Below, piece after piece: positions 7,495 through 58,664 of a stretch of DNA of 64,000 bases (its first letter is position 1; each line of letters opens with the position of its first letter). Below the pieces are notes generated by a model. The model was not told the DNA's origin and did no database searches. It saw only the letters and a list, made by a program, of their open reading frames with translations. Position numbers and translations under genes: made by a program. This stretch comes from Pseudomonadota bacterium (GTDB taxonomy: Bacteria > Pseudomonadota > Gammaproteobacteria > Steroidobacterales > Steroidobacteraceae): positions 62,001 through 126,000 of the forward strand of contig JAFEDS010000015.1 of the NCBI GenBank assembly GCA_018241505.1, read 5' to 3'.

Positions 7495-7508
7495 TTAACA
7501 TTTGTTGT
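7495..7508. promoter_or_regulatory. TAAC-N4-GTTA-type site upstream of Crp/Fnr gene
   Basis: TTAAC-ATTT-GTTGT lies 74 bp before the start of the first Crp/Fnr-type regulator and matches 8 of 10 half-site positions of the palindrome repeated through this window. It suggests autoregulation or cross-regulation. Confidence 0.4.
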
Positions 7509-7582
7509 TTCGCCGGCCACCCACTTGGAGAAAATACGCCGCTACGAAAATTCTATATGGATGGACCGTCCCGACAATCCTC

Positions 7583-8344
7583 ATGGTAATGAATCCGGCT
7601 CGTTATGTGCTGCACCGACGCGAACTGGTCGGCTCGCTGATCAGGGGTGATGCAAAGCTGTCTGAACTGATGAAGGGATCCGCGCGTACCCTGCCGGCGG
7701 GCCACGTGCTGATTGAAGCCAACACGGAACATGAATATGTCTACCGGCTGCGCGCGGGGTGGGCGTGCCGCAACCGGGCGGTACCCGACGGGCGCGACCA
7801 ATTCATTCTCATTTTTCTGCCCGGCGATCTGTTTGCCGTGAAAAGCCTGTTCATAACACGCCATCCCGACCGGGTGCAGATTCTTTCGGGCGCCATTGTT
7901 GAGCGCGTGCATTACATGCAGCTACAGGAGGCCTATTCACGGGACGTTGATATTGCCAACCTGTGCATGTGGCAATTGACCGAGGAAGAGCGCCGCCTGC
8001 ACGGCTGGGTATTTGGCCTCGGGCAAGGCAGCGCGGAGGAACGATTGGCACTGCTGCTGGTCGATTTACGAGGACGGCTCGTGCTTTCGGGCGCTATCCC
8101 CGCAGACACGTTGAGTTTCCAGTTCCCGTTGACGCAAGTCCAGGTTGGCGAGCAGCTCGGCATCACCCCTGTGCACACCAATCGCGTGATCAAATCGTTC
8201 CGGGAGCGCGGCATCGCCGCCTTCAGAAATGGCGAGTTGCACATCCAGAATTTTCCGGAATTGCGGCGTATTGCAGAACCCCTGATGGACGCGTATGAAC
8301 GAACGGCGGCACACTACGGGCTCGCCGAAGTTGAGAAGCCATGA
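7583..8344 (+). CDS. Crp/Fnr family transcriptional regulator (paralogue 1)
   Basis: The protein has 253 residues from the ATG at 7583; an ATG six bases on is equally possible and longer frames extend upstream without support. The N-terminal cyclic-nucleotide-type sensor barrel includes FLPGDLFAVKSL, about residues 75-86. The C-terminal winged helix has QVQVGEQLGITPVHTNRVIK, whose V-H-T-N-R recognition helix is shared by all four Crp/Fnr paralogues in the window. No Fnr-like N-terminal cysteine cluster is visible, so oxygen sensing through iron-sulphur is unlikely. The next gene overlaps by ATGA. A palindromic site sits 74 bp upstream. Confidence 0.9.
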   Translation: MVMNPARYVLHRRELVGSLIRGDAKLSELMKGSARTLPAGHVLIEANTEHEYVYRLRAGWACRNRAVPDGRDQFILIFLPGDLFAVKSLFITRHPDRVQILSGAIVERVHYMQLQEAYSRDVDIANLCMWQLTEEERRLHGWVFGLGQGSAEERLALLLVDLRGRLVLSGAIPADTLSFQFPLTQVQVGEQLGITPVHTNRVIKSFRERGIAAFRNGELHIQNFPELRRIAEPLMDAYERTAAHYGLAEVEKP

Positions 8345-8634
8345 GCCACGCACACAACGAAGACGCGGGAAATGCCGATGGGCCTTCCGAGGTTTCGATG
8401 CATCTGGCCTATGCGGAAGCCTGTATTGTTCTGCTCGAAAGCCTGATGCACGTTCTCATCGAGAAGCAGCTCGTGTCCAAGACCGAGCTGCTGAACGCCG
8501 TTGAAAGCGCCATGGACACCAAAAAGGCCATGGAGGATGCCCATTGGCACGAGACCATTGCGCCGCTGGCCGCGGGGGTGCTGGCGCAGCTAGGCAACAG
8601 TTTACGGGCGCTGCCGGATCGACCCGTGGTGTAG
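8341..8634 (+). CDS. Conserved hypothetical protein, coupled to Crp/Fnr gene
   Basis: The 97-residue acidic protein has a start ATG that overlaps the stop of the Crp/Fnr gene (ATGA), so it is translated with it. The sequence is largely helical with a central ACIVLLESLMHVLIEKQL segment and no transmembrane run or recognised motif. Being locked into the regulator's transcript suggests a partner or modulator role, but this is inference. It is convergent with the histidine kinase gene, whose stop lies immediately adjacent at 8635. Confidence 0.7.
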   Translation: MSHAHNEDAGNADGPSEVSMHLAYAEACIVLLESLMHVLIEKQLVSKTELLNAVESAMDTKKAMEDAHWHETIAPLAAGVLAQLGNSLRALPDRPVV

Positions 8635-10005
8635 TCAATCTCCTGCCACAGGCAGGTAGACGACAAATTCACTGCCGAGACCAGGTCCCGCGCTGCGGGC
8701 TTCAACCCGCCCGCCATGCAGCTCCACGAGGCGCTGCACCAGCGCCAGGCCGATTCCGAGCCCGCCCTGACAGCGATTCAAGGAGTGGTCCGTCTGCACG
8801 AACAGCTCGAAAATCCGCGGCAGCATCGTTTCGTCGATACCGATTCCGTCGTCTTTGATACAGACAACGGCCTGCGCTTCCCGGCGGGCGACCGTAATGG
8901 ACAAGGGACGCCCGTTGCGCCCGTACTTCGCCGCATTGTTCAGCAGGTTGGTGAAAACCTGGTTGAGGCGTTGGTTATCGCCTTCCACCAGCAGCGGCCG
9001 ATCAGTCAGGGATAACTGAATGGTCTGGCCGCTCTGGGCAATCCGCTCCGTCGCTGCCTCCACGGCCTGGGACACGATGCGGTTCAGATCCACGAGGGTC
9101 GTCTGCAAGCGCAACTGGCCGGCGGACACGCGGGAGGATTCCAACAGATCATCTACCAGTCGGCGTAACTGTGCCGTCTGGCGCGCCATGATTTCGCGTG
9201 AGCGGCGTTTTGTGTCGGGGTCTTCAGACCGATTCAGTACTGCGAGACCGCTCTCGAGAGGCCCGATGGCATTGCGCAACTCGTGGCTGAGGGTTGCGAG
9301 GAATTCAGCTTTGCCACGATCCTCTTCGTGCATGCGGCGATTGATCTCGCCCAGCTCGACGACTTCACGTTCGGCGGCGGCTCGTGCCTCCCCCTCCAAT
9401 CTGGCATGTGCCGCGGCTTTGGCGCTGGCGTGCACTGCAGCACCCGCAAACTGCGCGATATCGGCAATCAACCGCGCATCTTCCCGATCGAACCTTCGAT
9501 CATCGGCGTGCGCGGCGACCCAGATGGTTCCTACCGCGACCTCACCCTGGTGGAACGGAAACAACAGCACCTCTTCCACCGGATCGGCGAGCTCGCCGAT
9601 GTAGGGATAGTGGCGTTCGGGATGCAGCAGTACCAACATCCGATCCGTGTCGAGAACGGCGCCGCAGGGACTGAGGCTGCGGGGGATGGTCTGACCGGTA
9701 TACTGATTAAAGCGGCCGGCGGTGGCGACCCAGCGAAAACAGGGTTCCTGGCCCTCTTGCCCGGTCTCCAGCAAGCTGAGACCTGCCGACCCGGCATCGC
9801 ACAGCTCGCACAGCTCTTCCACCAACTCCTGTAGGAGTCGCTCGGGCGCGCGCGCCATGGTCTGCGCGAGCCGCAGCAACGCGCGGTTTTCCGCTGCCAA
9901 GTCCGGGGCACGCGCCGGTCGGAGCGCCAGCACGTCGTTGGAGAACACAGAGTGCGGAGGCGCACTATGGCGCCCACCGACTGAGCCGGTACCGTATGTG
10001 TTCAT
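8635..10005 (-). CDS. GAF-domain sensor histidine kinase
   Basis: The protein has 456 residues and no transmembrane segment, so it is a cytoplasmic sensor. A GAF domain occupies about residues 55-195. A short coiled region is followed by the HisKA dimerisation domain with phosphoacceptor H241 in LATLSHELRN. The HATPase domain contains the N box NQVFTNLLNNAAKYG, the G1 box DDGIGID and the G2 box GGLGIGLALVQ. All catalytic boxes are intact. No response regulator is adjacent, so its partner is elsewhere. Upstream, at 10103-10116, is a weak copy of the recurring palindrome. Confidence 0.92.
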   Translation of the reverse strand: MNTYGTGSVGGRHSAPPHSVFSNDVLALRPARAPDLAAENRALLRLAQTMARAPERLLQELVEELCELCDAGSAGLSLLETGQEGQEPCFRWVATAGRFNQYTGQTIPRSLSPCGAVLDTDRMLVLLHPERHYPYIGELADPVEEVLLFPFHQGEVAVGTIWVAAHADDRRFDREDARLIADIAQFAGAAVHASAKAAAHARLEGEARAAAEREVVELGEINRRMHEEDRGKAEFLATLSHELRNAIGPLESGLAVLNRSEDPDTKRRSREIMARQTAQLRRLVDDLLESSRVSAGQLRLQTTLVDLNRIVSQAVEAATERIAQSGQTIQLSLTDRPLLVEGDNQRLNQVFTNLLNNAAKYGRNGRPLSITVARREAQAVVCIKDDGIGIDETMLPRIFELFVQTDHSLNRCQGGLGIGLALVQRLVELHGGRVEARSAGPGLGSEFVVYLPVAGD

Positions 10006-10102
10006 GACCTATCCCCGTGGCGGCGCCGCGCAGCTTTCGCATCGCGCTGAAAGCGTGGCACCTTTATTTAGAGGATTGTGCTTGCGTGAGCGCAGGGGTG
10101 CA

Positions 10103-10116
10103 TTAACCCAGGTGAG
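10103..10116. promoter_or_regulatory. Weak TAAC-N4-GTTA-type site
   Basis: TTAAC-CCAG-GTGAG lies 97 bp upstream of the GAF kinase start. One half-site is perfect and the other is degraded, so this is the least certain member of the set. Confidence 0.25.
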
Positions 10117-10156
10117 CAACGGTCATCTGAGCGCAGTTCTGTGTCGTGAGGAGGCC

Positions 10157-11015: not shown

Positions 11016-12233
11016 CTAGTGCCGCGCGTGAGCGTGACTGTGCGCACGGCTCTTTTTGGGATGGGCTTGCAATGTGTCACGGGTTTTGGACTGTGTCGCG
11101 TGCGGCCTGAGGACGACTTTCGTCCAGCCTTGCTCGCGGGCATCGAAATGCCGGTAGGCGTCGGGTGCGTCTTCGAGCGACAGCTCATGAGAAACAATGA
11201 AGGACGGGCGCGCTTTGCCGAGCTCGATGAGCTTGCACAGGTGACGGTTGTAGGCTTTGACACTCGTCTGGCCGGTGGCCATGCGCAGCCCCTTGGACCA
11301 GAATTCGCCGAAGTCGAAGGCCAACTCGCCCTTGCGGGCGAGCTCGTGGCTGGATTTGGGATCTTCGGGCATGAAGACGCCCACCACGCCCAACGATCCG
11401 GTGGCACGCACGGATTTCACCAGGTTGTTCATTACTTCGTTCGGCACTTCGTGACCCTGTGGGTCATGGGCGTGGAAGCCGACACATTCGCAGCCACGAT
11501 CCGCACCCTCGCCCATCGTCAACTCCATGACGCGTTCGACGGGGTCTTCCTCGCTGTCGTTGATGACGACGGCGCCCGCCTTTTCGGCCAGCGCCAATCG
11601 ATCCGGATGGCGATCGACGACCATGATCTGGCCCGCGCCCTTGATCTGGGCGGAATACGCAGCCATCAGGCCGACGGGACCGGCGCCGTAGATAACGACG
11701 GACTCGCCCGGCATCAGGCCCGCGAGCTCGGTCGCGTGCCAACCGGTGGGGAAAATGTCCGACAACATGACATAGTCGTCCTGCTGCTCTGCCGCGCCGT
11801 CCGGTAACTTCAAACAATTGAAGTCCGCGTACGGCACACGCAGGTACTCGGCTTGCCCGCCGGGCAGCTCGCCCATGTCGGCGTAGCCATAGCCGGCGCC
11901 CGCGGTGCCGGGATTCAGTGTCAGGCAGGCGGCCGTCAGGCCACGCTCGCAGTTCTTGCAATAGCCGCAACTGGCATTGAAAGGGATGCAGACCAGGTCG
12001 CCGGCTTTGACGCGCGCGACCGCGTTACCGCATTCGACGATCTCTCCCAGGTTTTCGTGGCCAATGACAGTTCCCGGTTTCAAGCTGGTGCGGCCTTCAT
12101 ACATGTGCAGGTCGGATCCACATATGTTGGTTGTGGTGATTTTCACGATGGCATCGCTGGGATGTTTGATCTTCGGATCGGGTACGTCCTTGACCTGAAC
12201 GTCACGTGGGCCGTTGTAGACGATGGCTTTCAT
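11016..12233 (-). CDS. Zinc alcohol dehydrogenase, glutathione-independent formaldehyde dehydrogenase type
   Basis: The protein has 405 residues from the ATG at 12233 (MKAIVYNGPRDV). Catalytic zinc ligands C38 (NICGSDLH) and H59-E60 (GHEN) and structural zinc cysteines C89, C92, C95 and C103 are present. The Rossmann motif is YGAGPVGLMAA. The sequence pattern is that of the FdhA-like glutathione-independent formaldehyde/aldehyde dismutase group. The C-terminus has an odd basic, histidine-rich tail (SRAHSHAHARH), perhaps metal binding. It heads a probable operon with the SDR at 10157. A 14-bp palindrome lies 65 bp upstream, shared with the divergent SDR at 12384. Confidence 0.88.
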   Translation of the reverse strand: MKAIVYNGPRDVQVKDVPDPKIKHPSDAIVKITTTNICGSDLHMYEGRTSLKPGTVIGHENLGEIVECGNAVARVKAGDLVCIPFNASCGYCKNCERGLTAACLTLNPGTAGAGYGYADMGELPGGQAEYLRVPYADFNCLKLPDGAAEQQDDYVMLSDIFPTGWHATELAGLMPGESVVIYGAGPVGLMAAYSAQIKGAGQIMVVDRHPDRLALAEKAGAVVINDSEEDPVERVMELTMGEGADRGCECVGFHAHDPQGHEVPNEVMNNLVKSVRATGSLGVVGVFMPEDPKSSHELARKGELAFDFGEFWSKGLRMATGQTSVKAYNRHLCKLIELGKARPSFIVSHELSLEDAPDAYRHFDAREQGWTKVVLRPHATQSKTRDTLQAHPKKSRAHSHAHARH

Positions 12234-12298
12234 ACGAGCTCCGGGATGCTGGTGTCGGCACGGAGTGGATTTCCAGCACGCGCCATTCCCGCACAATG

Positions 12299-12312
12299 CT
12301 AACGCAAGTTAA
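12299..12312. promoter_or_regulatory. TAAC-N4-GTTA palindrome in divergent promoter
   Basis: CTAAC-GCAA-GTTAA sits between the divergent zinc ADH (65 bp to start) and the Tat-type SDR (71 bp to start). Symmetric placement fits bidirectional control by a Crp/Fnr-type dimer. Confidence 0.5.
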
Positions 12313-12383
12313 ATTTCACCCGGTGGGCTTGAAACGTGCTGGATGCACGGGGTGTTGATTGCGAGCTGATGGAAGGTAAACAC

Positions 12384-13376
12384 ATGGACACTCTGACACG
12401 GCGGGAGGCATTGAGCATGGTGGGTGCCGGTGTGGCTGCCTCCACGGCCGGTCATGTTCGCGCGGAAAGTTCCGCGCCCCATTCACAAGGTGCTGCCGCT
12501 ATGGAAGACCCACGCGAAAAATATCCCAAGCCGCCGTTCAAATCGCAGCAGCAGCCGTGGCCGGGGCTGGCGCGCGACATGGACCCCCGACCCGATCATG
12601 GGGAGAAGAGTTACAAAGGCTCCGGTCGCCTGCAGGGCCGCAAGGCGCTGATCACGGGCGGTGATTCCGGGATGGGGCGCGCCGCTGCAATCGCTTACGC
12701 GCGCGAAGGCGCTGATGTCGCGATCAACTACTTTCCGAGTGAGGAGGCTGATGCCCGGGAGGTCGTTGAGATCATTCAACAGGCCGGACGCAAGGGCTTT
12801 CCCATACCTGGGGACCTGCGTGAAGAGGCCTTCTGTGAGCGGCTCGTTGCCGAGGCCGTGCAGAAGCTCGGCGGCCTGGATATCGTGGTGTGCAACGCCG
12901 GCCGACAGCAGGCGAAGCAATCGATCCTCGATATCTCGACCGAGGACTTCGATGCGACCATGAAGACCAACCTTTACGCGCCGTTCTGGATCATCAAGGC
13001 AGCGCTGCCGCATTTGAAGGCCGGTGCCTGCATCATCGGTACCACCTCGGAGCAGGCTTACGATCCGTCTCCCGACCTGTACGACTACGCGCAAACGAAG
13101 GCGGCGACCATGAACTACGTGAAGTCGCTGGCGAAGCAACTGGGCGGTCGGGGCATTCGGGTGAACGGCGTTGCACCGGGTCCTATCTGGACCCCTCTGC
13201 AGGTCAGCGGGGGCGCGACGCAACAGAAGCTGCAGCACTTTGGTGGTCAGACTTCATTGGGGCGGCCCGGTCAGCCGGCGGAGCTGGCCTCGATCTATGT
13301 GCAACTCGCTGCCAGCGACGCCAGCTTTGCCACCGGAAACATTTACGGTTCGGGCGGCGGAACCGGTCAGCCGTGA
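12384..13376 (+). CDS. SDR family oxidoreductase, YghA/GSP39-like, with Tat-like leader
   Basis: The protein has 330 residues from the ATG at 12384, preceded by GGAAGG at good distance. Residues 1-30 (TLTRREALSMVGAGVAAS) look like a twin-arginine-type leader, unusual for an SDR. A family-specific N-terminal arm rich in proline (YPKPPFKSQQQPWPG) follows, then the cofactor motif TGGDSGMGRAAA. The catalytic YDYAQTKAA and the PGPIWTPLQ stretch are intact. Relatives (E. coli YghA, Bacillus general stress protein 39) are NADP aldehyde or ketone reductases induced by stress. A paralogue lies at 15264. Confidence 0.88.
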   Translation: MDTLTRREALSMVGAGVAASTAGHVRAESSAPHSQGAAAMEDPREKYPKPPFKSQQQPWPGLARDMDPRPDHGEKSYKGSGRLQGRKALITGGDSGMGRAAAIAYAREGADVAINYFPSEEADAREVVEIIQQAGRKGFPIPGDLREEAFCERLVAEAVQKLGGLDIVVCNAGRQQAKQSILDISTEDFDATMKTNLYAPFWIIKAALPHLKAGACIIGTTSEQAYDPSPDLYDYAQTKAATMNYVKSLAKQLGGRGIRVNGVAPGPIWTPLQVSGGATQQKLQHFGGQTSLGRPGQPAELASIYVQLAASDASFATGNIYGSGGGTGQP

Positions 13377-13430: not shown

Positions 13431-13444
13431 ATAACTTGCGATAG
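13431..13444. promoter_or_regulatory. TAAC-N4-GTTA-type site before PRC-barrel gene
   Basis: ATAAC-TTGC-GATAG lies 29 bp before the PRC-barrel start. The core TTGC matches the perfect copy at 16161. Its closeness to the start is unlike the usual 62-74 bp, so it may repress rather than activate. Confidence 0.35.
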
Positions 13445-13473: not shown

Positions 13474-13839
13474 ATGCCAACACAGTCCGGGCACACCCGT
13501 GCCATCTGCGCCAATAAAGTCATCGGTACTACCGTACGTAACGCCGCGGGCGAAAGCATCGGCAAGGTCGAAGACGTCGTTCTCGACAAGCAGTCGAACA
13601 ACATCATGTTCGCCGTGGTCGGCTTCGGCGGTTTCCTCGGAATGGGTGAGAAATACCATCCAGTTCCCTGGAGCACGCTGAACTACGACGACAGCCAGAA
13701 CGCCTACATCGTGAACTTCACCAAGGATCAGCTCAAGGCCGCGCCGGCGGATTCAATGGATGAGCTCACGAGGAATGACGGATTCAATTATCGGGATCGT
13801 ACCTACGACTATTACAAGGCACCTCACTACTGGTCGTGA
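13474..13839 (+). CDS. PRC-barrel domain protein
   Basis: The 121-residue protein's start is supported by AGGAG upstream. Residues about 14-90 form a PRC-barrel (NKVIGTTVRNAAGESIGKVE, DVVLDKQSNNIMFAVVGFGG), the small beta-barrel found in photosynthetic reaction-centre H subunits, RimM and many stress-induced cytoplasmic proteins. No enzymatic residues are seen. The tyrosine-rich C-terminus (YRDRTYDYYKAPHYWS) is typical of stress-associated family members. It sits among SDR, DUF427 and CinA genes, supporting a general-stress role rather than photosynthesis. Confidence 0.88.
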   Translation: MPTQSGHTRAICANKVIGTTVRNAAGESIGKVEDVVLDKQSNNIMFAVVGFGGFLGMGEKYHPVPWSTLNYDDSQNAYIVNFTKDQLKAAPADSMDELTRNDGFNYRDRTYDYYKAPHYWS

Positions 13840-15263: not shown

Positions 15264-16136
15264 ATGCTTACAGATCCCCGGGCCGCCGGCCCACGGCCAC
15301 CGTTTCCGAAGCAGCAACAACCCCCACCGGGCAAGACGGCCCGACTGGACCCGGTACCCGACCACGGTGAAAACAGCTACCGCGGCCATGGGCGACTGGC
15401 GGGCTGCAGCGCCATCGTGACGGGGGGCGATTCGGGAATCGGCAGGGCGGTTGCCATTGCTTTTGCCCGCGAGGGCGCGGACGTTTTGATTGCCTATCTC
15501 AATGAGCACGAGGACGCCGAGGACACCGCGAGTTGGGTGAGAAGGGCCGGCCGAAGGGCGTTGCTGGTGCCGGGTGACATCGGCCACGAACCCCATTGCC
15601 GACATGTCGTCGAGCGCGCCGTCAGCGAATTCGGGAAGTTGGATATCCTGGTGAACAATGCTGCCTTCCAACGCACGCACGAGAAGCTTTGGGACTTCAC
15701 CGCCGAAGAAATAGACACGACCTTCCGCACGAACATCCAGAGCTTGTTCCACTTATCCAAGGCAGCGGTTCAGCACATGAAAGCCGGCGGCTCCATTATC
15801 AACACCGCCTCCATCCAGGCGGACAAACCTTCACCGAGCCTTTTGGGCTATGCCACGACCAAGGGCGCGGTCGCCAATTTCACGGGCGGCCTCGCCCAGC
15901 TCATCGCGGAATCCGGCATCAGGGTCAACGCGGTAGCGCCGGGACCCGTATGGACGCCGTTGATCCCATCGACGATGCCAGAGGAGCAAGCTTCCAAGTT
16001 CGGCGAGAACAGCCCGCTCGGGCGACCTGCACAACCGGCCGAGCTCGCCGGTGCGTACGTATTTCTCGCGTCGAATGACGCCACCTACATCAGCGGCGCT
16101 ATTCTCCCCGTGACGGGCGGGAAGCCCTTCCTGTAA
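15264..16136 (+). CDS. SDR family oxidoreductase, YghA/GSP39-like
   Basis: The 290-residue protein is a paralogue of the product at 12384 without the Tat-like leader. It has the proline-rich arm (PPFPKQQQPPPGKTARLD), cofactor motif TGGDSGIGRAVA, LVNNAAFQ, catalytic Ser in NTASIQA, YATTKGA as Tyr/Lys, and PGPVWTPLIPS. A ribosome site GAGG precedes the ATG. It is likely an NADP-dependent aldehyde reductase of the general stress group. The product is complete. Confidence 0.9.
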   Translation: MLTDPRAAGPRPPFPKQQQPPPGKTARLDPVPDHGENSYRGHGRLAGCSAIVTGGDSGIGRAVAIAFAREGADVLIAYLNEHEDAEDTASWVRRAGRRALLVPGDIGHEPHCRHVVERAVSEFGKLDILVNNAAFQRTHEKLWDFTAEEIDTTFRTNIQSLFHLSKAAVQHMKAGGSIINTASIQADKPSPSLLGYATTKGAVANFTGGLAQLIAESGIRVNAVAPGPVWTPLIPSTMPEEQASKFGENSPLGRPAQPAELAGAYVFLASNDATYISGAILPVTGGKPFL

Positions 16137-16160
16137 CTTGGATTAAAAGATATGTGAACT

Positions 16161-16174
16161 TTAACTTGCGTTAA
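16161..16174. promoter_or_regulatory. Perfect TTAAC-N4-GTTAA palindrome
   Basis: TTAACTTGCGTTAA is a perfect 5-4-5 inverted repeat 93 bp before the HWE-like kinase gene, which begins an operon ending in a Crp/Fnr gene. It is the best copy in the window and fits feedback control of the operon. Confidence 0.55.
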
Positions 16175-16267: not shown

Positions 16268-16930
16268 ATGCCCGTGAGTAGCGAACCTTCCACTTCAGCA
16301 AGAACAGCCGCCGGTGAAGCACTCGCTGGGTTTCAGCCCGACGAGCGCCGCCGATTTTTTGATTTCCAGCGCCAGGTACGGGGGCTCCTGGCCATTGTTC
16401 GATCCATTGTACGGCGTATGGCCGAGAGCAGCGGATCGGTGGAAGACTTCGCGGCGCACCTGGAGGGACGATTGGGCGCGCTGGCCCGGATCCAGGGATT
16501 TTTGTTGCGGGCTCCGGATGCTCCGGTGGACTTGGAGGAGCTGGTCCGGGCTGAGTTCCTGGCCCAGTCCATTCCGGATGAGCACTTTGAAATCAAGGGT
16601 CCGCGCGTCCTGCTGACCGCGAAGGAAGCCGGCACACTTGGACTGGCGTTGCACGAGCTGACGACCAATGCCATCAAATTTGGAGCGTTCGCCAGCCCCG
16701 CTGGCCGACTGAGCGTCGAATGGGATCGCTGCGGGCGCTCGTCTGAATACGTAACGCTCGAGTGGCGTGAGCGCACTCGACACGTTGTTTCCGCGGCCAC
16801 TCACAAGGGCTTTGGCTTCGAGCTGATTGAACAGACCCTGCCGTACGAGCTGGGCGGAACCAGCTCCCTCGTTCTGACACCCTCGGGCTTGCAATGTTCG
16901 ATTACCTTCCTGTTACCCGCGCACGAGTGA
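16268..16930 (+). CDS. HWE-type histidine kinase domain protein lacking the phosphoacceptor His
   Basis: The protein has 220 residues. The catalytic half is a recognisable HWE kinase: the N box ALHELTTNAIKFGAF (about residues 123-137), the W-x-E motif in LEWRERT, and the G box GFGFELIEQTLPYELGG. In the dimerisation helix, where the family has H-R-x-K-N-x-L-A, this protein reads Q34-R35-Q36-V-R-G-L-L-A, so the phosphoacceptor histidine is replaced by arginine (codon CGC at the site). No sensor domain is present. It may be a pseudokinase, a phosphatase, or may phosphorylate in trans. It is followed 5 bp later by a receiver protein gene. Confidence 0.85.
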   Translation: MPVSSEPSTSARTAAGEALAGFQPDERRRFFDFQRQVRGLLAIVRSIVRRMAESSGSVEDFAAHLEGRLGALARIQGFLLRAPDAPVDLEELVRAEFLAQSIPDEHFEIKGPRVLLTAKEAGTLGLALHELTTNAIKFGAFASPAGRLSVEWDRCGRSSEYVTLEWRERTRHVVSAATHKGFGFELIEQTLPYELGGTSSLVLTPSGLQCSITFLLPAHE

Positions 16931-16935: not shown

Positions 16936-17349
16936 ATGGAAAGCGCAACAACTCACCTGCAGATGACGGATGACGGCAACGAGCTGAATGGCTTGCGAGT
17001 GCTGGTGGTCGAGGACGACTACCTGGTCGCGGCTGACATGTGCGCGGCGCTCATGCGCAGGGGAGCAATCATCATCGGCCCGGCGAGCAACCTGCGGCGT
17101 ACCCGTGAGCTGTTGCGCCAGTACCGGCCGGATTGTGCGCTGCTGGACCTGAATCTGAACGGGGTGCTGGCGTTCGAGCTGGCGGAAGAGTTTGAACACG
17201 AGGGCGTACCCACCATCTTCACAACCGGTTACGACGCGGCGTTCCTTCCGGAATCGCTGCGCGCGGCGCCCTGCCTGCAGAAGCCGGTCAACTTCAAGGC
17301 GCTCGTGAAGCTGATCCAGGCCAACGCCCGTTGCGCGCCGCTCGCATGA
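16936..17349 (+). CDS. Single-domain response regulator (CheY-like receiver)
   Basis: The protein has 137 residues from the ATG at 16936. All receiver residues are present: acidic pocket E26-D27-D28 (VVEDDYLV), phosphoacceptor D71 (ALLDLNLNG), T96/T97 (IFTTGYD) and K116 (LQKPV). There is no output domain. The sequence is of the type that pairs with HWE kinases in alphaproteobacterial general-stress circuits. It lies between the kinase-like gene (5-bp gap) and a Crp/Fnr gene (ATGA overlap), so the three are one operon. It may shuttle phosphoryl groups or bind a partner protein. Confidence 0.9.
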   Translation: MESATTHLQMTDDGNELNGLRVLVVEDDYLVAADMCAALMRRGAIIIGPASNLRRTRELLRQYRPDCALLDLNLNGVLAFELAEEFEHEGVPTIFTTGYDAAFLPESLRAAPCLQKPVNFKALVKLIQANARCAPLA

Positions 17350-18119
17350 GTCCGCAGTCCCAACCCAACGTCCTGTCGCTGGTCCGCAAGCTGGAACATT
17401 GTGCATTGTTGTCTTCCGAGGAAAAGCGCGCGCTGGAAAATGCCTGCAGCTCGGTTCGCCAGCTCATGCCGCGAACCAACCTCGTGTCAGAAGGCGATCC
17501 GGCCCCGCGGGTGAACGTGATATTGGAAGGGTTCGCCTGCCGCTACCGGTTGCAGGCGGACGGTCGCCGACAGGTTGTGGGCCTGCTGCTGCCAGGGGAC
17601 ATGTGCGATATTCGAATCTGCATCCTCAAGCACATGGATCATTCCATAGGCACGCTGAGCCCGGTCCGCGCGGCACAGATACCGCGCGAGACCGTAGACG
17701 CGTTGCTCGACCGCTACCCGCGACTGTCGCGCGCGTTGTGGTGGTCCACGCTGGTCGATGAATCGATCACGCGCGAATGGGTTGTCAATGTCGGACACCG
17801 GACGGCCTTTGAGAGGATGGCGCACCTGTTTTGCGAGATCTTCGAACGGCTGCATACGGTCGGCTTGACACGGGGTGATACGTGCGACCTGCCGCTGACG
17901 CAGGCGGAGCTGAGCGATGCGCTCGCGCTGTCAGCGGTTCACGTGAATCGCGTCCTGATGGAGATGCGGCACAATCAACTGATCACACTGCGCAACCAAC
18001 AACTCACGCTGCACGACTACCAGGCGCTGCGCAACATCTCCGGCTTTGATGGGCGCTACCTGCATCTCGACGGTGTGAACGGGCCGTCATTCGCAGTCGC
18101 GGAACAGCGTACCGCGTAG
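17346..18119 (+). CDS. Crp/Fnr family transcriptional regulator (paralogue 2)
   Basis: The protein has 257 residues. The ATG at 17346 overlaps the receiver gene stop (ATGA); an ATG 15 bp upstream is possible. The cNMP-type barrel has LLLPGDMCDIRI. The winged helix includes LTQAELSDALALSAVHVNRV, with the V-H-V-N-R recognition helix identical to that of the 36083 paralogue; the C-terminal halves of the two are closely similar (both contain REW, then AHLFCE). It is the likely DNA-binding output of the kinase-receiver operon, though no direct phospho-signal link to this fold is known. Confidence 0.9.
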   Translation: MSPQSQPNVLSLVRKLEHCALLSSEEKRALENACSSVRQLMPRTNLVSEGDPAPRVNVILEGFACRYRLQADGRRQVVGLLLPGDMCDIRICILKHMDHSIGTLSPVRAAQIPRETVDALLDRYPRLSRALWWSTLVDESITREWVVNVGHRTAFERMAHLFCEIFERLHTVGLTRGDTCDLPLTQAELSDALALSAVHVNRVLMEMRHNQLITLRNQQLTLHDYQALRNISGFDGRYLHLDGVNGPSFAVAEQRTA

Positions 18120-18617
18120 TTACAGGATGCGGATGTCGATTTCCGCTTGAAAGAAATGGCACGCGAGCCGCATCGTAGCCGCAAGCCTGCAAAACTCGCC
18201 CGGGTTCAGGGCCCGCGTAATTCGGCCAACCCGGGAGTCGGGATATTTGAAGCGACGCGCATTGAGCGGTGGAAACTGCGAAGACACGATGTCGGAAAGA
18301 GCAATGACTCCATCGCGCATCTGCAGCAATATGCCGTGCAGGCGCAAGTCCGCTCCGAGATCCGCCGCCAACGACAGGAAGCATCCGCGTTGCTCGGGAG
18401 TTTGATTGACGGCGTCGGCGCGCTCTGTGAAAGGCCGGCTGTAGGACATCAGCGCACCCAGCGCGGCACCCGCGTGGACCATCGAGCCAGCGGGATGTTT
18501 CGCAGCGACGTGCCCAAAATTGATGGCGACCTCGAGATCACGCACAGCACGACAGGACCAAGGGTCCGTCGGGGCCGGAGGCACGGGCATTCTCAGCAAC
18601 AGCTCGCGATGGTGCAT
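18120..18617 (-). CDS. Hypothetical protein
   Basis: The protein has about 165 residues from the ATG at 18617 (MHHRELLLRMPVPPAPT); a start at 18662 is also open. I recognise no domain. A central segment (AINFGHVAAKHPAGSMVHAG, GAALGALMSYSRPF) is followed by a basic C-terminal half. The opposite strand also holds a 165-codon frame, but its composition (runs of R, Q and H) looks like a shadow. The stop abuts that of the Crp gene. A copy of the recurring palindrome sits 63 bp upstream of 18617, which supports this start and reading. Confidence 0.55.
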   Translation of the reverse strand: MHHRELLLRMPVPPAPTDPWSCRAVRDLEVAINFGHVAAKHPAGSMVHAGAALGALMSYSRPFTERADAVNQTPEQRGCFLSLAADLGADLRLHGILLQMRDGVIALSDIVSSQFPPLNARRFKYPDSRVGRITRALNPGEFCRLAATMRLACHFFQAEIDIRIL

Positions 18618-18680
18618 GTCGTTCAACCCTGGGCGCAAGAGTAGGTCGACAAAAAATATCACCAGCGCCGCCGGCTCGCG

Positions 18681-18694
18681 CTAACCTGCGATAG
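18681..18694. promoter_or_regulatory. TAAC-N4-GTTA-type site
   Basis: CTAAC-CTGC-GATAG lies upstream of the hypothetical gene ending at 18120, 63 bp from the preferred start at 18617. One half-site has a T-to-A change. Confidence 0.4.
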
Positions 18695-21015: not shown

Positions 21016-21029
21016 CTAACCTAGGTTGT
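21016..21029. promoter_or_regulatory. TAAC-N4-GTTA-type site in divergent promoter
   Basis: CTAAC-CTAG-GTTGT lies between the SRPBCC gene (67 bp to start) and the glycosyltransferase gene (38 bp to start). Confidence 0.45.
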
Positions 21030-27225: not shown

Positions 27226-27855
27226 CTATTGAGTTTTCGCTTCACCGTGAGCCCGAGCGGAGTGCATCGCGCTGGGCAGTTCGCCAGCCATGTGCTTGTG
27301 CTCCGTCAGGGTAGGCAACGTCTTTTTGGCAAACGCGGCCAAGTCCGGATCAGACGTTTTAGTGGCGGCCTGGAACAACGCGACCGTCTTCGTGTGATCC
27401 TCCTTCATCTGCTTCCCGTAAGCAGCATCGAAATCGGCGCCCTGCTTGTTGCTGAGTCTTTGAACGATAGCCTGATGCTCGGCGTCGAGCGACGTCGGCA
27501 CTTGCAGGCCCTTGGACTTCGCCAGACTCGTCAGCTCGTCATTGGCTTTGGTGTGGTCACGGACCATCTGTTCAGCAAATTGTTTGACCTTCGGGTCCTG
27601 AGAGCTGGCTTCGGCCGCTTTGGAAACTGCGACCTCGGTGAGACCTCCCTGAGCGGCTTTCGTTACGAATGTGGCAGGATCGACGTTACTCTCACCCGCG
27701 GCTCCTTCTCCCCAATGGGATTTGGTGGCTGACGATTGGTGGGCAGATGTCGCAGCAGTTATATCGGGTGCTGTACTCGTGGGCGCTTGCGCGTATACGG
27801 CCGAGATAACGCCGGCGGTCAGCACTACTGCAATCGTCTGGGCAACCTGGCTCAT
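27226..27855 (-). CDS. DUF4142 protein, exported
   Basis: The protein has 209 residues from the ATG at 27855, with a signal peptide (VAQTIAVVLTAGVISAVYAQ). The mature part contains the ferritin-like DUF4142 helical bundle: DPATFVTKAAQGGLTEVAVS, VKQFAEQMVRDHTKANDEL, DAAYGKQMKEDHTKTVALF and a final TLPTLTEHKHMAGEL. Histidines at the helix ends are conserved, but a metal role has not been shown. DUF4142 genes are commonly stress-linked. A second copy lies at 31914. The recurring palindrome is 99 bp upstream. Confidence 0.9.
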   Translation of the reverse strand: MSQVAQTIAVVLTAGVISAVYAQAPTSTAPDITAATSAHQSSATKSHWGEGAAGESNVDPATFVTKAAQGGLTEVAVSKAAEASSQDPKVKQFAEQMVRDHTKANDELTSLAKSKGLQVPTSLDAEHQAIVQRLSNKQGADFDAAYGKQMKEDHTKTVALFQAATKTSDPDLAAFAKKTLPTLTEHKHMAGELPSAMHSARAHGEAKTQ

Positions 27856-27954: not shown

Positions 27955-27968
27955 CTAACCTAGGTTAA
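27955..27968. promoter_or_regulatory. TAAC-N4-GTTA palindrome
   Basis: CTAAC-CTAG-GTTAA has a palindromic CTAG centre and lies between the DUF4142 gene (99 bp) and the divergent membrane protein gene (152 bp). Confidence 0.45.
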
Positions 27969-28062: not shown

Positions 28063-28076
28063 GTAACTTGCTGTGT
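28063..28076. promoter_or_regulatory. Half TAAC-N4-GTTA-type site
   Basis: GTAAC-TTGC-TGTGT lies 44 bp before the membrane protein gene at 28121. The left half and core match the consensus, while the right half does not. Confidence 0.25.
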
Positions 28077-35054: not shown

Positions 35055-35399
35055 CTGGAAGAGGTGGGCGGCGGCCGGTCGCCGTTGAGGAATACAAAGC
35101 TCTGCCTACTCTCCAATAGCCGCCCTAGATTCGCGCATCAGTTTTATTTCGGCGTGCGGCCGTCGTCGGTGGCGGGTAGCTGCGAAAGATCCCGGCGGCG
35201 AAGATGAAGCTGGCGGTCGGTCCCACCGCCTGCAGCATCAGGTCCTTCAAGTCGAAGCCGGGGCAGGGCAGCTTTACGGCCATGGCTGTACCGCGCACCG
35301 CGCTCGCGATTGTTAACCTGAGGCAAGGAGTTTGATCCAGATCATCTCGCGACCGCAGTCGGCCCGATAGTTGCTGTTTAAACCCTCAGGAGGGATTCG
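35055..35399. other. Intergenic stretch before Crp/Fnr pair
   Basis: The stretch is 345 bp long. A small minus-strand frame at 35125-35283 (52 codons, MAVKLPCPGFDLKDLMLQAV) is possible but unsupported. The promoter-proximal part carries the site at 35313-35326. Confidence 0.4.
35313..35326. promoter_or_regulatory. TAAC-N4-GTTA-type site before Crp/Fnr gene
   Basis: TTAAC-CTGA-GGCAA lies 73 bp before the start of paralogue 3. The same spacing is seen upstream of paralogue 1 (74 bp). Confidence 0.4.
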
Positions 35400-36086
35400 A
35401 TGTACATAAGCGACCAATTGGGACAGCGCGCGCGCGAAACTCCATTCCCGCCGACTGCACGACAGGAGCAGCGGGTCACCGGGCGACATACCTTCCGCGC
35501 GCGCGAGCAGATTGCGAACAGCGTTGGCGCTGGTGCAGGCGCTCACATTGTCCTGAGCGGAATGCTGTCCCGATACACGCTGACGCCGGATGGGCGGAGA
35601 CAATTCACCGCGCTGCTGTTGCCGGGAGATGTGATTGGATTCGAGTCAGTACTGAACCTCAAATGTGCGGACAGCACTATCGCTCTGACCGACAGTGTGT
35701 GCAAGCCGCTCACGTCGACTGACCTGGCAGAATCCGACACCTGGATGCAGGTGTGGGATGCAATTGAAAGACAGACGCTCGCGGCGAGCGACTGGACGTT
35801 GAATATCGGAACGCGGCCCGCCCTGCAGCGCCTCGCCTATTTCTTTCATGACACGTTGACTCGCATGCGCGCGCTCGGTGTCGTCGGCGCCGGCACTCGC
35901 TGTCAATTGCCACTGACGCAAATGGAGCTTGCGGACTTCCTCGCGCTGACGCCGGTGCATATCAACCGCTGCCTCTCTGTTCTTCGGTGCAACGGGATTG
36001 CAACGTTTCGCAGTGGCAGTCTCTACGTACCGAATCTCCAGGAGCTGTGGCGAGTGGCACAATTCGAGGCGGAGATGCCGCTTTGA
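35400..36086 (+). CDS. Crp/Fnr family transcriptional regulator (paralogue 3)
   Basis: The protein has 228 residues. The sensor barrel is shortened at the N-terminus and includes LLPGDVIGFESV. The winged helix contains QMELADFLALTPVHINRCLS, with the V-H-I-N-R recognition helix of the group. AGGAGG precedes the start. The gene ends within the start of a second Crp/Fnr gene (TTGA overlap), so the two regulators are made together. Lack of the usual N-terminal residues suggests a divergent effector site. Confidence 0.88.
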   Translation: MYISDQLGQRARETPFPPTARQEQRVTGRHTFRAREQIANSVGAGAGAHIVLSGMLSRYTLTPDGRRQFTALLLPGDVIGFESVLNLKCADSTIALTDSVCKPLTSTDLAESDTWMQVWDAIERQTLAASDWTLNIGTRPALQRLAYFFHDTLTRMRALGVVGAGTRCQLPLTQMELADFLALTPVHINRCLSVLRCNGIATFRSGSLYVPNLQELWRVAQFEAEMPL

Positions 36087-36802
36087 ATTGCTTCATGCGC
36101 AGGCTGGAAAACCATGCCACCTTGTCAGAGGCGGAAAAGGGTGTGTTGCGCCATGCGCTCAGCTCTCGCCAGCTCCACAAACAGAGCCGAGCGTCGATCG
36201 CTACCCGCCACCCCGCCGACGGCCTTACGATCATTCTCGCAGGCTTCGCCTACCGGTATCAGTTGCTTGCTGTCGGGCGACGACACATTTCAGGGTACTT
36301 TGTCGCGGGAGACCTCTGTACCCTGCGACAATCTTCCCTGAGTCGTTCCGATTATTACATTGGAACGCTCGGCCCCACCGAAACTGCAATTCTCTCTCCG
36401 GGCGACATACTCAGTGAGCCGGAACGTCATCCCAATCTCACCCGGGCTTTGTGGTGCGCGATGCTTGCGGAGCAGTCGATCGCTCGCGAATGGATCTCAA
36501 ATGTCGGACCGCGCACCGCGTATGAGCGCGTGGCGCACCTCTTTTGCGAAATGTTCGTACGCCTGCAGTGGGTCGGACTGACGCGGCAGGAGCGCTGTAG
36601 CCTGCCGCTCACACAGCGCGACCTGGCGGATGCACTGTCACTTTCCGCGGTGCACGTGAACCGGGTGTTGCGCCAGATGCGCCTGGATGGGCTGCTGACA
36701 TTCCATCGGGGGCTGCTCATCATCCCGGATTTGGCCGCACTACGTATTGCGGCGGGTTTCGATTCAACCTACCTGCATCCGCCCACCACCGTCCCGATCT
36801 GA
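36083..36802 (+). CDS. Crp/Fnr family transcriptional regulator (paralogue 4)
   Basis: The protein has 239 residues from a TTG at 36083 that overlaps the previous stop; the resulting start MNCFMRRLENHATLS matches the usual family opening. The ATG at 36095 is the conservative alternative. The barrel has GYFVAGDLCTLRQ and the helix-turn-helix LTQRDLADALSLSAVHVNRV. It is closely similar to paralogue 2 over the C-terminal half. The pair with paralogue 3 could act as homo- or heterodimers on the same palindromes. Confidence 0.88.
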   Translation: MNCFMRRLENHATLSEAEKGVLRHALSSRQLHKQSRASIATRHPADGLTIILAGFAYRYQLLAVGRRHISGYFVAGDLCTLRQSSLSRSDYYIGTLGPTETAILSPGDILSEPERHPNLTRALWCAMLAEQSIAREWISNVGPRTAYERVAHLFCEMFVRLQWVGLTRQERCSLPLTQRDLADALSLSAVHVNRVLRQMRLDGLLTFHRGLLIIPDLAALRIAAGFDSTYLHPPTTVPI

Positions 36803-37539: not shown

Positions 37540-37553
37540 ATAACCTGCGTTAT
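37540..37553. promoter_or_regulatory. Perfect ATAAC-N4-GTTAT palindrome
   Basis: ATAACCTGCGTTAT lies 62 bp upstream of the hemerythrin gene. It is a perfect inverted repeat with the same CTGC core as other copies. Confidence 0.5.
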
Positions 37554-38299: not shown

Positions 38300-38313
38300 C
38301 TAACATGTGACAT
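38300..38313. promoter_or_regulatory. TAAC-N4-GTTA-type site (weak)
   Basis: CTAAC-ATGT-GACAT lies 69 bp before the cysteine-rich gene and 84 bp before the divergent gene at 38398. The right half is degraded. Confidence 0.3.
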
Positions 38314-39730: not shown

Positions 39731-39744
39731 CTAACGCAGGTTAA
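39731..39744. promoter_or_regulatory. TAAC-N4-GTTA palindrome before PQQ-oxidase operon
   Basis: CTAAC-GCAG-GTTAA lies between the DUF4136 gene (71 bp) and the divergent PQQ dehydrogenase (45 bp). It links the alcohol-respiration operon to the regulon of the stress genes. Confidence 0.5.
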
Positions 39745-55825: not shown

Positions 55826-56062
55826 ATGACGCAACAAAAGGACAAAAAGGGTAGCCCGCGAAGCGCCCCGCATCTGCCGCCTGACGGACAGGGTCAGATC
55901 TTCGGCGGCCGCGGCGAGGGCGAGCTCTGTGACCTGTGCGGCACGGCCATAGATTCGTCTCAGATCGAATATGAAGTCGAGTGGCAGGATGAGGCGGGCC
56001 CGCGGCGCTCGCACTTCCACCTCGCCTGTTATGAACAATTGCGCTCGAATCAGAGGGAGTAG
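55826..56062 (+). CDS. Small zinc-ribbon-like protein
   Basis: The protein has 78 residues from the ATG at 55826. A C-x2-C pair (ELCDLCGT) and a later H-x-H-x3-C (SHFHLACYEQ) are spaced as in a zinc ribbon. The N-terminus is charged and disordered. Function is unknown. It lies 6 bp before the DUF6502 gene and may be in its operon. Confidence 0.65.
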   Translation: MTQQKDKKGSPRSAPHLPPDGQGQIFGGRGEGELCDLCGTAIDSSQIEYEVEWQDEAGPRRSHFHLACYEQLRSNQRE

Positions 56063-56068
56063 GCCTGG

Positions 56069-56878: not shown

Positions 56879-56902
56879 ACCCCCTTCCAGAGAGCGCCGC
56901 CC

Positions 56903-57808
56903 ATGAAACATCCCACTACAAAACTCACAATCGTGTCATTGGCCGCCGCTATCCCTCTGGCAGGCGTGGCAGGTATCCAGGGATCTGGGCGCAATTTCGC
57001 TCTGATTGCCCCGGTCACCGCCAACCTTGGAGACACCCTATCGGTGGGCGGAGTCCCCTATTCCGACTCCGCGGCTTCCATTGAAGTCGACGGGCAAGCG
57101 GGCAAATCCAGTCAGCTCGAGGTCGGCGATGTCGTCACGGCCTACGGGAACGGCAATCACATTGAGCGGCTCATTCTGAATCACTCGGTGCGCGGGCCCG
57201 TGAGCTCGGTGGATCCGGCGGGCGGCACCTTCACGGCCGCGGGCCAGACCATTCACGTCGGCGCGCAGACGACATTGGCAGTGGGCTTGTCCGCCCTGGT
57301 CCCGGGCACAAAAGTCCAGGTCAGCGGTTGGGCCGATTCAACCGGGGACATCATTGCATCACGAGTCGATCTGCTGATTTCGCGTGAGCCGACGCAGGTC
57401 AGTGGCGAGGTGACATCTTTGGATGCAGGCCGGCATCGATTCAAGATCAACCAGCTCACGGTGGACTACAGTGCCTCGGAAGTGGAAGGCGTGCTGCAGG
57501 AAGGTGCTGACGTGGTGGTTGACGGCGTGAGCTTCGACAGAAACGGCGCGCTCGTGGCCAACGAAGTCCAACTGGTGCAACCGTTGCAGGTCACAGCCGG
57601 ACAGACCGGCCGGCTGGAGGGCATCATCACGCAGCTCACTTCGACCGCGGAGTTCGAAATTGATGGTCAGTCGGTGCGAGTGACCGCCAGCACGAAGCAG
57701 AATCTGCACGGCGGCCCCATCGCATTGAACGCCAAAGTGAAAGTCAGCGGCGTATTTGATGATAACGGCGTGCTGGTCCTCGGCTCGCTGCAGAGTCTGA
57801 GGAGATAG
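56903..57808 (+). CDS. DUF5666 domain protein, exported
   Basis: The protein has 301 residues with an N-terminal signal (LTIVSLAAAIPLAGVAG). It contains three to four repeats of a beta-rich module of the DUF5666 type (VGDVVTAYGNG, GTKVQVSGWADSTGDIIASR, EGADVVVDGVSFDRNGALVA and AKVKVSGVFDDNGVLVLGSL). The modules resemble OB-like folds. It is probably periplasmic, of unknown function. The last 65 bp overlap the convergent methyltransferase gene. Confidence 0.82.
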   Translation: MKHPTTKLTIVSLAAAIPLAGVAGIQGSGRNFALIAPVTANLGDTLSVGGVPYSDSAASIEVDGQAGKSSQLEVGDVVTAYGNGNHIERLILNHSVRGPVSSVDPAGGTFTAAGQTIHVGAQTTLAVGLSALVPGTKVQVSGWADSTGDIIASRVDLLISREPTQVSGEVTSLDAGRHRFKINQLTVDYSASEVEGVLQEGADVVVDGVSFDRNGALVANEVQLVQPLQVTAGQTGRLEGIITQLTSTAEFEIDGQSVRVTASTKQNLHGGPIALNAKVKVSGVFDDNGVLVLGSLQSLRR

Positions 57809-58487
57809 TCTGCGGGGCCGCCACGATGCCACAGCACATCTGCGTCGCATCCCAGGCGAGCGGGAAGTCCAACAGCTCATCAACGCGAAAGCCCGCGCGC
57901 GTGAGCTCTCGCTGCAGCACGCGCTGATCGAGCAGGTGCGGCCGGCGGGAGTCAGCCGCGCCCGGCCACACTTCGTCGTTTTCGCAGCGCCGCGCGTACT
58001 CCCGATGGAAGCCCGCCCAATGCGAGCCATGCGGGGTGAGGACACTGATGAACAATCGGCCATCGGGGCGCAGCCAGCCCCTGAACTGCCGCAAGGATTG
58101 CCGGATTTCGTTGCCTTCCAGCAGATGCAACACCCTCGCCGCGTGAATGGCTGTCAGGCTCGCGGACTCGAATTGCAAGGTGGGCAGCCGGCCGCCGAGC
58201 ACACGCAGGTGCGCGCGTTGCCGGACCGGAAGTTGGGCCAACAACGGCTCGATGTTGCTCGTGTCAGGATCTATCGCCACTACCCGCGCGCCGCGGACCA
58301 GCGCGGCCGCCGCCGCAATCCCGCCGCCACAGCCAATGTCCACACTGGTGCCACCCTCGCGTCCGGCCCAGACAGCGAAACGATGAGTGAGCGGATCGAG
58401 GGAAGGACTCAGTCCCAGGCCGGACGGGCGCTCGGGCATGGCCCAATCAGGTTGCAGAGCTCGCAACGCTGGAAAGCTCATCAGCAT
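57744..58487 (-). CDS. Class I SAM-dependent methyltransferase-like
   Basis: The protein has 247 residues from the ATG at 58487; an ATG at 58562 is possible. The SAM motif SVDIGCGGGIAAAAAL (about residue 49) with the following VVAIDPDTSNIEPL and LTAIHAARVLHLL fits a Rossmann methyltransferase, and the second part has LFISVLTPHGSHWAG. The substrate is unknown. The gene 3' end overlaps the DUF5666 gene. Confidence 0.82.
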   Translation of the reverse strand: MLMSFPALRALQPDWAMPERPSGLGLSPSLDPLTHRFAVWAGREGGTSVDIGCGGGIAAAAALVRGARVVAIDPDTSNIEPLLAQLPVRQRAHLRVLGGRLPTLQFESASLTAIHAARVLHLLEGNEIRQSLRQFRGWLRPDGRLFISVLTPHGSHWAGFHREYARRCENDEVWPGAADSRRPHLLDQRVLQRELTRAGFRVDELLDFPLAWDATQMCCGIVAAPQTISSDSAASRGPARRYHQIRR

Positions 58488-58650
58488 TCGATGATCTCCA
58501 TCGCCGTCCTGGCGCTCGCAGGTGGAATTATTTGTCCTACTGGCAGCAATCGCCATACCCAAGCTCGAGACTGCAGCGTCTTTGCGACTTAAGGCTCAGC
58601 GGGTACGCGTTGTACCAACATGTGCAAGGAAACGGGTGGCAAGCCGGTGA

Positions 58651-58664
58651 CTAACATGAGTTAA
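58651..58664. promoter_or_regulatory. TAAC-N4-GTTA palindrome
   Basis: CTAAC-ATGA-GTTAA lies between the methyltransferase gene and the small HTH gene (109 bp to its start). It is the most distant copy from the others in the window. Confidence 0.4.

Follow-up and report, generated by a model that had tools for sequence, protein, structure and literature searches.

FixK2 and FNR read TTGAT-type half-sites (TTGAT-N4-ATCAA), and change-of-specificity experiments on Glu-181 of CRP are established background for the Crp/Fnr family. Here we analysed a 64-kb stretch of DNA (the window; positions 62001-126000 of contig C6) from a Steroidobacteraceae draft genome, in which a palindrome with another half-site, YTAAC-N4-GTTAR (the box), recurs beside genes for Crp/Fnr regulators with a V-H-x-N-R (VHxNR) helix. 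Boxes of this type are found in three described lineages. NssR of Campylobacter jejuni has the box TTAACnnnnGTTAA (TTAAC-N4-GTTAA) and carries Ala-180 and Gln-181, and HcpR2 of Clostridia, Bacteroides and Thermotogales has the box GTAACnnnnGTTAC (GTAAC-N4-GTTAC) and carries Pro-181 (excerpts of PMC1274295). According to the same excerpts (PMC1274295), residue 181 and a half-site base co-vary across Crp/Fnr proteins, Glu-181 specificity mutants are mentioned in general, and predicted HcpR regulons often include hemerythrin-like genes. In Listeria, the PrfA box is tTAACanntGTtAa, with S184 and R188 contacting T and G (excerpts of PMC5359189); from its spacing to the Arg, we read S184 as the equivalent of residue 181. 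The original prediction, made from the window sequence, knew of no described regulon with this box. This was wrong, as NssR, HcpR2 and PrfA share the box type (excerpts of PMC1274295 and PMC5359189): the box type is already known, and what is new is the VHxNR regulator clade and its regulon.

We regard the box as genuinely operator-like and most likely that of the VHxNR Crp/Fnr clade. Judged from sequence, it is quite probably the operator by which these regulators would control their own synthesis together with nearby signalling and stress/redox genes. P0002, encoded with an HWE kinase and a lone receiver in an operon preceded by a perfect box, is the best candidate regulator. The Crp/Fnr operator reading of the original prediction is well supported by the specificity for a 4-bp spacer, the intergenic position of the exact cluster sites, their clustering with the VHxNR genes, the boxes found before crp genes or operons in several other genera and the match between residue 181 and the changed third base; for the hemerythrin and PQQ targets, orthologues in the closest relative did not bear it out.

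NssR resembles the window system in its family, its identical half-site and spacing and its lack of Glu at 181 (excerpts of PMC1274295). It is, however, a nitrosative-stress regulator of a globin gene, whereas the window clade has Val/Ile-181 and an HWE kinase/receiver neighbourhood, with stress enzymes, hemerythrins and kinases as putative targets. HcpR2 shares the family, the TAAC/GTTA core, the N4 spacer and a replaced Glu-181 (excerpts of PMC1274295) and differs in its outer base (G/C), its main target (hcp) and its anaerobic hosts. In shared features alone (TTAAC/GTAAC half-site, N4, no Glu-181), and set beside both by description, the window system is of the NssR/HcpR2 type. PrfA, again Crp/Fnr with the same half-site and spacing (excerpts of PMC5359189), has a different biology and is activated by glutathione; it was not among the listed structure and sequence matches of P0002 (including the best 60 of 97 and the best 50 of 1799). 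The nearest solved structures and, by sequence, the nearest named NCBIfam models among the matches listed were those of FixK2, FNR and FnrL, but in the alignments position 181 is still Glu in FixK2 and in A. fischeri FNR. An FNR/FixK box and regulator was rejected for the window, where the half-site differs (YTAAC-N4-GTTAR) and Glu-181 is absent. In the open-licence literature we found no described operator for VHxNR regulators and, among the matches listed, no relevant paper linking the genera discussed below to a Crp/Fnr box. Text matches to the box spellings came from PMC1274295 and four papers with the PrfA box, and the available parts of PMC12531629 contain no box of this kind.

Box copies and regulator genes in the window

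The features are given below in window positions, those marked C6 in contig positions. Box copies were found by pattern match.

7495..7508, + strand: box copy TTAACATTTGTTGT, one core mismatch, before Crp/Fnr gene 1
7583..8344, + strand: Crp/Fnr regulator 1 (P0001), helix PVHTNR (Pfam PF13545 and PF00027 on the longer reading 7502-8344)
10103..10116, - strand: box copy with one core mismatch, 162 bp upstream of the gene for a GAF histidine kinase (8635-9948)
12299..12312, between divergent genes: exact box CTAACGCAAGTTAA, between zinc alcohol dehydrogenase (Zn-ADH; 11016-12233, -) and short-chain dehydrogenase/reductase (SDR; 12336-13376, +) genes
13431..13444, + strand: box copy, one core mismatch, before the PRC-barrel gene 13474-13839
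16133..16146, + strand: one-mismatch copy GTAACTTGGATTAA, 28 bp ahead of the perfect box, with overlap of a gene end at 16136
16161..16174, + strand: perfect box TTAACTTGCGTTAA, before the HWE kinase/receiver/Crp operon
16268..16930, + strand: gene for an HWE histidine kinase, with 16268 or 16418 as the possible start (Pfam PF07536)
16936..17349, + strand: stand-alone receiver domain gene (Pfam PF00072)
17346..18119, + strand: Crp/Fnr regulator 2 (P0002), helix AVHVNR (alignment, AlphaFold2 model)
18681..18694, - strand: box copy, one core mismatch, before the short gene 18120-18662
21016..21029, between divergent genes: box copy, one core mismatch, between polyketide-cyclase-domain (-) and glycosyltransferase (+) genes
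27955..27968, - strand: exact box CTAACCTAGGTTAA, at a distance of 106 bp from a DUF4142 gene (27226-27855)
28063..28076, + strand: weak copy, three core mismatches
35313..35326, + strand: weak copy with two core mismatches, upstream of Crp/Fnr genes 3 and 4
35400..36086, + strand: Crp/Fnr regulator 3 (P0003), helix PVHINR (Pfam)
36095..36802, + strand: Crp/Fnr regulator 4 (P0004), helix AVHVNR
37540..37553, - strand: box with perfect arms, ATAACCTGCGTTAT, 70 bp upstream of the hemerythrin gene (36866-37477)
38300..38313, + strand: weak copy, two core mismatches
39731..39744, between divergent genes: exact box CTAACGCAGGTTAA, between a DUF4136 gene (-) and a pyrroloquinoline quinone (PQQ)-dehydrogenase/cytochrome oxidase operon (+)
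58651..58664, + strand: exact box CTAACATGAGTTAA, before small genes
C6:127123, C6:131022 and C6:132280 (65123, 69022 and 70280 on the window scale): three further exact boxes to the right of the window, before a PAS kinase gene, before receiver/PAS kinase genes, and between CheB and CHASE4-kinase genes
C6:40265: tenth exact copy on C6, inside a gene

VHxNR regulators and their recognition helix

As had been predicted, four Crp/Fnr genes with V-H-x-N-R helices (P/A-V-H-x-N-R) are encoded in the window. A family search of the host genome found four VHxNR genes, all of them in the window, and three other clear Crp/Fnr genes with RQ-type (both C7 genes) or RE-type (the C46 gene) helices; four partial PF13545 matches over the cut-off stand outside this count of genes found. 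All four window regulators belong to the Crp/Fnr superfamily, with HTH_Crp_2 over its cut-off in each, and Pfam cNMP-binding and HTH_Crp domains were found on P0003 and on the longer reading of P0001. The AlphaFold2 model of P0002 (predicted local distance difference test score 89.7) gave FNR as its best fold match, CRP and FixK2 also being matched (best 50 of 1799 listed). NCBIfam matches of P0002 were far under their cut-offs (best 82 of 300 bits).

A regulator search in relatives yielded at least 79 named loci (159 relatives matched), and 72 of the 79 read [VI]HxNR. All 79, with seven further proteins, were aligned across the helix. At the position of CRP Glu-181, 83 of these 86 proteins have Val and three have Ile, and the equivalent of CRP Arg-185 (R202) is invariant (86/86). 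This conservation is not built in, because the search peptides fall outside the helix, and the clade helix aligns without gaps to FixK2 and FNR around the Glu-181 position. Val/Ile-181 would be a fitting partner for A at base 3 of the half-site, and on the aligned sequences the clade fits the published position-181 rule as a putative further case. CRP-type residues 180 and 181 differ in the clade; the cAMP pocket was viewed by eye only.

P0002 has cysteines at positions 19, 34, 65, 87, 92, 163 and 180. Cys-65, Cys-87 and Cys-163 are kept in 80, 79 and 83 of the 86 proteins, the conservation of Cys-65 and Cys-163 being built in by their place within search peptides and Cys-87 lying outside them; redox sensing through these three is possible. 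The N-terminal cysteine set of FNR type for a 4Fe-4S cluster was not seen in the P0002 sequence.

Conservation at regulator promoters

The exact box lies before the HWE-kinase/receiver/Crp operon in the host genome, in G005 (same genus, P0002 homologue 61% identical), in Steroidobacter gossypii and in Peristeroidobacter. It stands directly before crp at three Microvirga, one Roseococcus and two Methylobacterium loci, and between two crp homologues at a Mesorhizobium locus. Altogether, nine of the 79 named loci carry an exact box upstream of crp or of the operon it belongs to (10 if Mesorhizobium is counted), other exact boxes lying elsewhere in the loci. In G025, which belongs to another family, TTAACCCAGGTTAT is found 35 bp before the start of its own crp gene, whose product is 28-32% identical to P0002. 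Across the 1.30 Mb around the 79 relatives' regulator genes, the TAAC/GTTA pair occurred 18 times at N4, as against 0-4 times at other spacers. A position weight matrix (PWM) scan of the 300 bp before crp took in 78 of the 79 loci, the contig end being too near at one, and 14 reached a shuffle p<=0.01. Only eight of these 14 are new, because six (L064, L070, L085, L104, L112, L122) had supplied that site to the matrix.

Two other palindromes, AAGCT-N4-AGCTT (19 copies) and ATGGA-N4-TCCAT (17 copies), were also elevated in the relatives' loci (L063-L141). They were set aside as shared coding sequence, because 17 of the 19 and 14 of the 17 lie inside the regulator gene, near one place.

In the window, three of the four regulators had been credited with sites before their gene or operon. 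Two of these sites are good (7495 with one mismatch, 16161 perfect), but the third (35313) has two mismatches. We put at only just short of an even chance the alternative that the box has a single binder among the paralogues (P0002 or P0004) and that the remaining VHxNR proteins have moved to other sites, so that the genes would form one regulator's regulon. Exact boxes do precede the P0002 homologues, while regulator 1 is preceded by a one-mismatch copy and the operon of regulators 3 and 4 by nothing better than a two-mismatch one; P0003 and P0001 are 26% and 25% identical to P0002 (P0004, 46%). On the other hand, V-H-x-N-R is common to all four paralogues, all of which lie inside the site cluster, and the distant G025 regulator also has a box before its own gene.

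It is unlikely that the box is bound by some unrelated protein, such as a response regulator or a different palindrome-reading repressor of the island, and that the Crp/Fnr genes are mere targets. Many box-bearing genes are indeed two-component genes, but a 5-4-5 geometry is what Crp/Fnr boxes have, the TAAC/GTTA half-site is shared with three other lineages of the family, the change in the helix residue fits the change in the base, and in Microvirga, Roseococcus and Methylobacterium the gene directly behind the box is crp itself.

With a VHxNR regulator as the binding factor, the dimer would place one recognition helix into each half-site. There, with Val where CRP and FNR have Glu-181, an A:T pair would be tolerated at base 3 of the half-site, and recognition of the G opposite C at base 5 would fall to the invariant Arg (CRP Arg-185); such contacts would yield YTAAC-N-YR-N-GTTAR. 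The VHxNR proteins would then bind the box, the kinase and receiver would act upstream of them, and the genes would form a stress regulon in which the regulators govern their own synthesis plus neighbouring signalling and stress/redox genes. Val is thus a candidate recognition residue and would add a case to the published rule on position 181, where NssR has Gln and HcpR2 has Pro.

Box and regulator are also found paired in some distantly related bacteria of soil and plants. A wider proposal, which we advance tentatively and hold to be somewhat less probable than its opposite, is that the VHxNR proteins form a widespread undescribed Crp/Fnr branch, coupled to HWE kinases and lone receivers and acting through an operator of its own, YTAAC-N-YR-N-GTTAR. 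The branch would run a stress/redox programme in the gammaproteobacterial kin of Steroidobacter and, among the alphaproteobacteria, in Microvirga, Methylobacterium and Roseococcus, an activator family and not a sigma factor governing the stress response, and in the present genome its targets and four paralogues would be gathered in one 60-kb island. If the operator assignment itself is right, stress genes of the DUF4142, DUF2382, PRC-barrel and hemerythrin types gain a regulator, and the question arises why regulators and targets cluster on the chromosome. The outcome is a concrete predicted operator with a list of promoters for testing.

Frequency, spacing and position of the box

All 14 of the 14-mers originally listed are present in the window, and the perfect 5-bp arms claimed for 16161 and 37540 are correct. 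The palindrome is real and its exact copies are far above chance, although eight of the 14 copies are degenerate and several had been described too generously. Exact YTAACN4GTTAR is found in five of the 14 (12299, 16161, 27955, 39731, 58651), as against a mean of 0.03 in 100 shuffles of the window, none of which reached five. The copy at 37540 adds a sixth exact TAACN4GTTA core (outer pair A/T); for this core, the six in the window compare with a mean of 0.08 and a maximum of 1 in 60 dinucleotide shuffles. A single mismatch within the eight core bases TAAC/GTTA is seen at 7495, 10103, 13431, 18681 and 21016, two mismatches at 35313 and 38300 and three at 28063, the last three copies all being weak. 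The one-mismatch copy at 16133 was absent from the earlier list; with that at 16161 before the HWE kinase operon, it is a possible double site. It is the exact copies that carry the evidence, the one-mismatch copies standing out solely by their intergenic position and the central YR step.

The assertion that nine copies lie 62-74 bp from a start codon could not be reproduced: measured from the inner edge of the site and with our own choice of starts, five of 17 in-window site/gene pairs do so. By eye, no shared -10 element at a fixed distance from the box was seen among the cluster sites.

TAACN4GTTA occurs 29 times in the genome, 10 times on C6 and, of these, nine times within C6:74299-132292. 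For nine of 29 copies in 58 kb (0.7% of the genome) the binomial p is 6e-13, the interval being set by the sites themselves; for six of 29 given the 64-kb window it is 1e-7. All nine cluster copies are intergenic, compared with 63 of 484 (13%) equal-composition control palindromes on C6, so that the coding/intergenic comparison named beforehand came out in favour of the box. The regulon had been called local. This agrees with the density of the cluster, but remote copies also lie between genes or at gene ends: of the 19 copies on other contigs, 12 are between genes (four overlapping a gene end) and seven within genes. Nine of these 12 are before or at a gene start, and three (L047, L051, L060) are between convergent gene ends.

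The excess is specific to the 4-bp spacer. In C6:69-133 kb, the TAAC/GTTA pair is found nine times at N4 and never at ten other spacers in the range N0-N10, and in the whole host genome N4 accounts for 29 of the 82 pairs at N1-N9. These other spacings served as the genome-wide control; a reversed-pattern count (162 vs 29) was dropped, since it concerns a different word with another background. The central two bases are Y then R in 21 of 22 exact sites (nine from the host, 13 from relatives), a step that played no part in finding the sites. Exact boxes were searched for in 10 relatives' genomes, and the 65 from eight of them were classified (G042, with four boxes, was left out; G048 had none). 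The YR step is present in 50 of these 65 (p 2e-18 vs 1 in 4, with orthologous Microvirga sites being non-independent). All 65 are intergenic or on a gene end by our own gene calls, counted together as intergenic and without a control, the control palindromes having been counted on C6 only.

Seven gammaproteobacterial genomes holding the regulator have 124 N4 and 47 N5 copies, and eleven genomes of the same genus and order, taken as non-holders, have 51 and 63 (Fisher p 4e-6), with G025 (N4 2, N5 3) left out of both sides. Four helices of weak Crp matches, read in three of these eleven genomes, included none of the VHxNR type.

Intergenic DNA is AT-richer than the rest, and an artefact of chance or composition, with AT-rich words gathering between genes of GC-rich DNA, would agree with the chance-level number of one-mismatch copies in the window. 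We nevertheless consider this very improbable, as the excess is absent from other spacings and from half-sites of the same composition and as neither the 13% of control palindromes between genes, nor the clustering in the window, nor the YR core of the relatives' sites is matched by it. Chance is already unlikely for the exact copies and may account for 28063, 35313 and 38300 as single sites. That the palindrome is a misread set of promoter elements of an EcfG-type extracytoplasmic sigma factor of the general stress response (consensus GGAAC...CGTT) is barely credible despite the stress-type gene content and a sigma gene with PhyR-like domains beside a box in G005, given the symmetric dyad with its fixed 4-bp spacing and the absence of GGAAC-N15-18-CGTT from both strands of the window.

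Evidence at target promoters and in other genomes

Several gene types recur beside boxes across classes. DUF4142 genes have the box at 27955 in the window and about 200 bp upstream in Microvirga; hemerythrin genes have it at 37540 and, in Microvirga, at 234 bp; and sugar/PQQ dehydrogenases have it at 39731 and in Steroidobacter, where a GSDH gene is divergent from an HWE kinase gene. HWE kinases, PAS kinases and DUF2382 genes also recur in this way, and CBS and DUF1269 genes lie farther from relatives' boxes (426 and 708 bp). In three Microvirga genomes, TTAACGTTAGTTAA, TTAACGAACGTTAA and TTAACGTTGGTTAA each stand 180 bp before the same gene, the box being kept while the core varies.

A number of results weigh against the box as a conserved VHxNR operator. 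One-mismatch TAACN4GTTA copies in the window number six, against a mean of 4.1 and a maximum of 11 in 60 dinucleotide shuffles. In G005, the hemerythrin (77%) and PQQ (62%) orthologues have no box in the 400 bp upstream, so that, in the part of the G005 contigs compared, the box is kept at one of three comparable promoters (the kinase operon). The comparison at orthologous promoters that had been proposed therefore went both ways: at the regulator operon it was favourable in a minority of the relatives, and for hemerythrin and the PQQ operon it was unfavourable in the closest one. In homologue searches covering 23 genomes, no word within one mismatch turned up in the 500 bp ahead of the match for any of 25 Zn-ADH homologues (37-47% identical); three of 17 hemerythrin homologues had a one-mismatch word (-110, -148, -473), all three being below 32% identity, and one of the 17 had only 40 bp of upstream sequence. 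Because the homologues mostly lack the box, the Zn-ADH and hemerythrin target assignments rest on one genome.

At the regulator promoters themselves, most relatives have no clear box in the 300 bp upstream, including most Methylobacterium and all Bradyrhizobium seen. Among four Steroidobacter/Peristeroidobacter loci, two have an exact box, L066 has one-mismatch words only and L067 has none in 2.6 kb. When one mismatch is allowed before crp, TAAC is found at 15 of 78 loci and seven other half-sites at 1 to 10. The contrast between holders and non-holders follows phylogeny and does not represent independent events, kinship being ignored by the Fisher p, and seventeen alphaproteobacterial holders have no genome-wide excess (N4 178, N5 259). 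From these counts, the genome-wide excess is a trait of the Steroidobacter-like group, and the alphaproteobacterial evidence is local and comes from orthologous promoters.

Genome setting and further observations

The draft genome comprises 7.88 Mb in 46 contigs (completeness 93.9, contamination 5.67). At 7.9 Mb and 5.67% contamination, it stands apart from the other sampled genomes of its genus (1.8-4.7 Mb), G005 (6.9 Mb) excepted. G005 is also the sole sampled genome of the genus with close P0002 homologues, and the assembly or placement of the host deserves care.

At G005:C120 (L145, 1383-3300), a box lies between a topoisomerase IB gene and the sigma gene whose product has PhyR-like sigma domains, which may point to a connection with the general stress response. 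Remote host copies, with gene names assigned by eye, lie 55 bp from a thiamine-diphosphate oxidase-like gene, 105 bp from a permease gene and 60 bp before a dehydrogenase-subunit-like gene that directly follows a hemerythrin-like gene. Two distant hemerythrin homologues in Steroidobacter/Peristeroidobacter (L227 and L236, in G042 and G043) share the one-mismatch word CTAACATTTGATAA, 110 and 148 bp before the match. Finally, TAACATAGGTTA or its complement makes up five of the 21 TAACN4GTTA copies in G044 and seven of the 22 in G052, and is likely a Microvirga-specific consensus.

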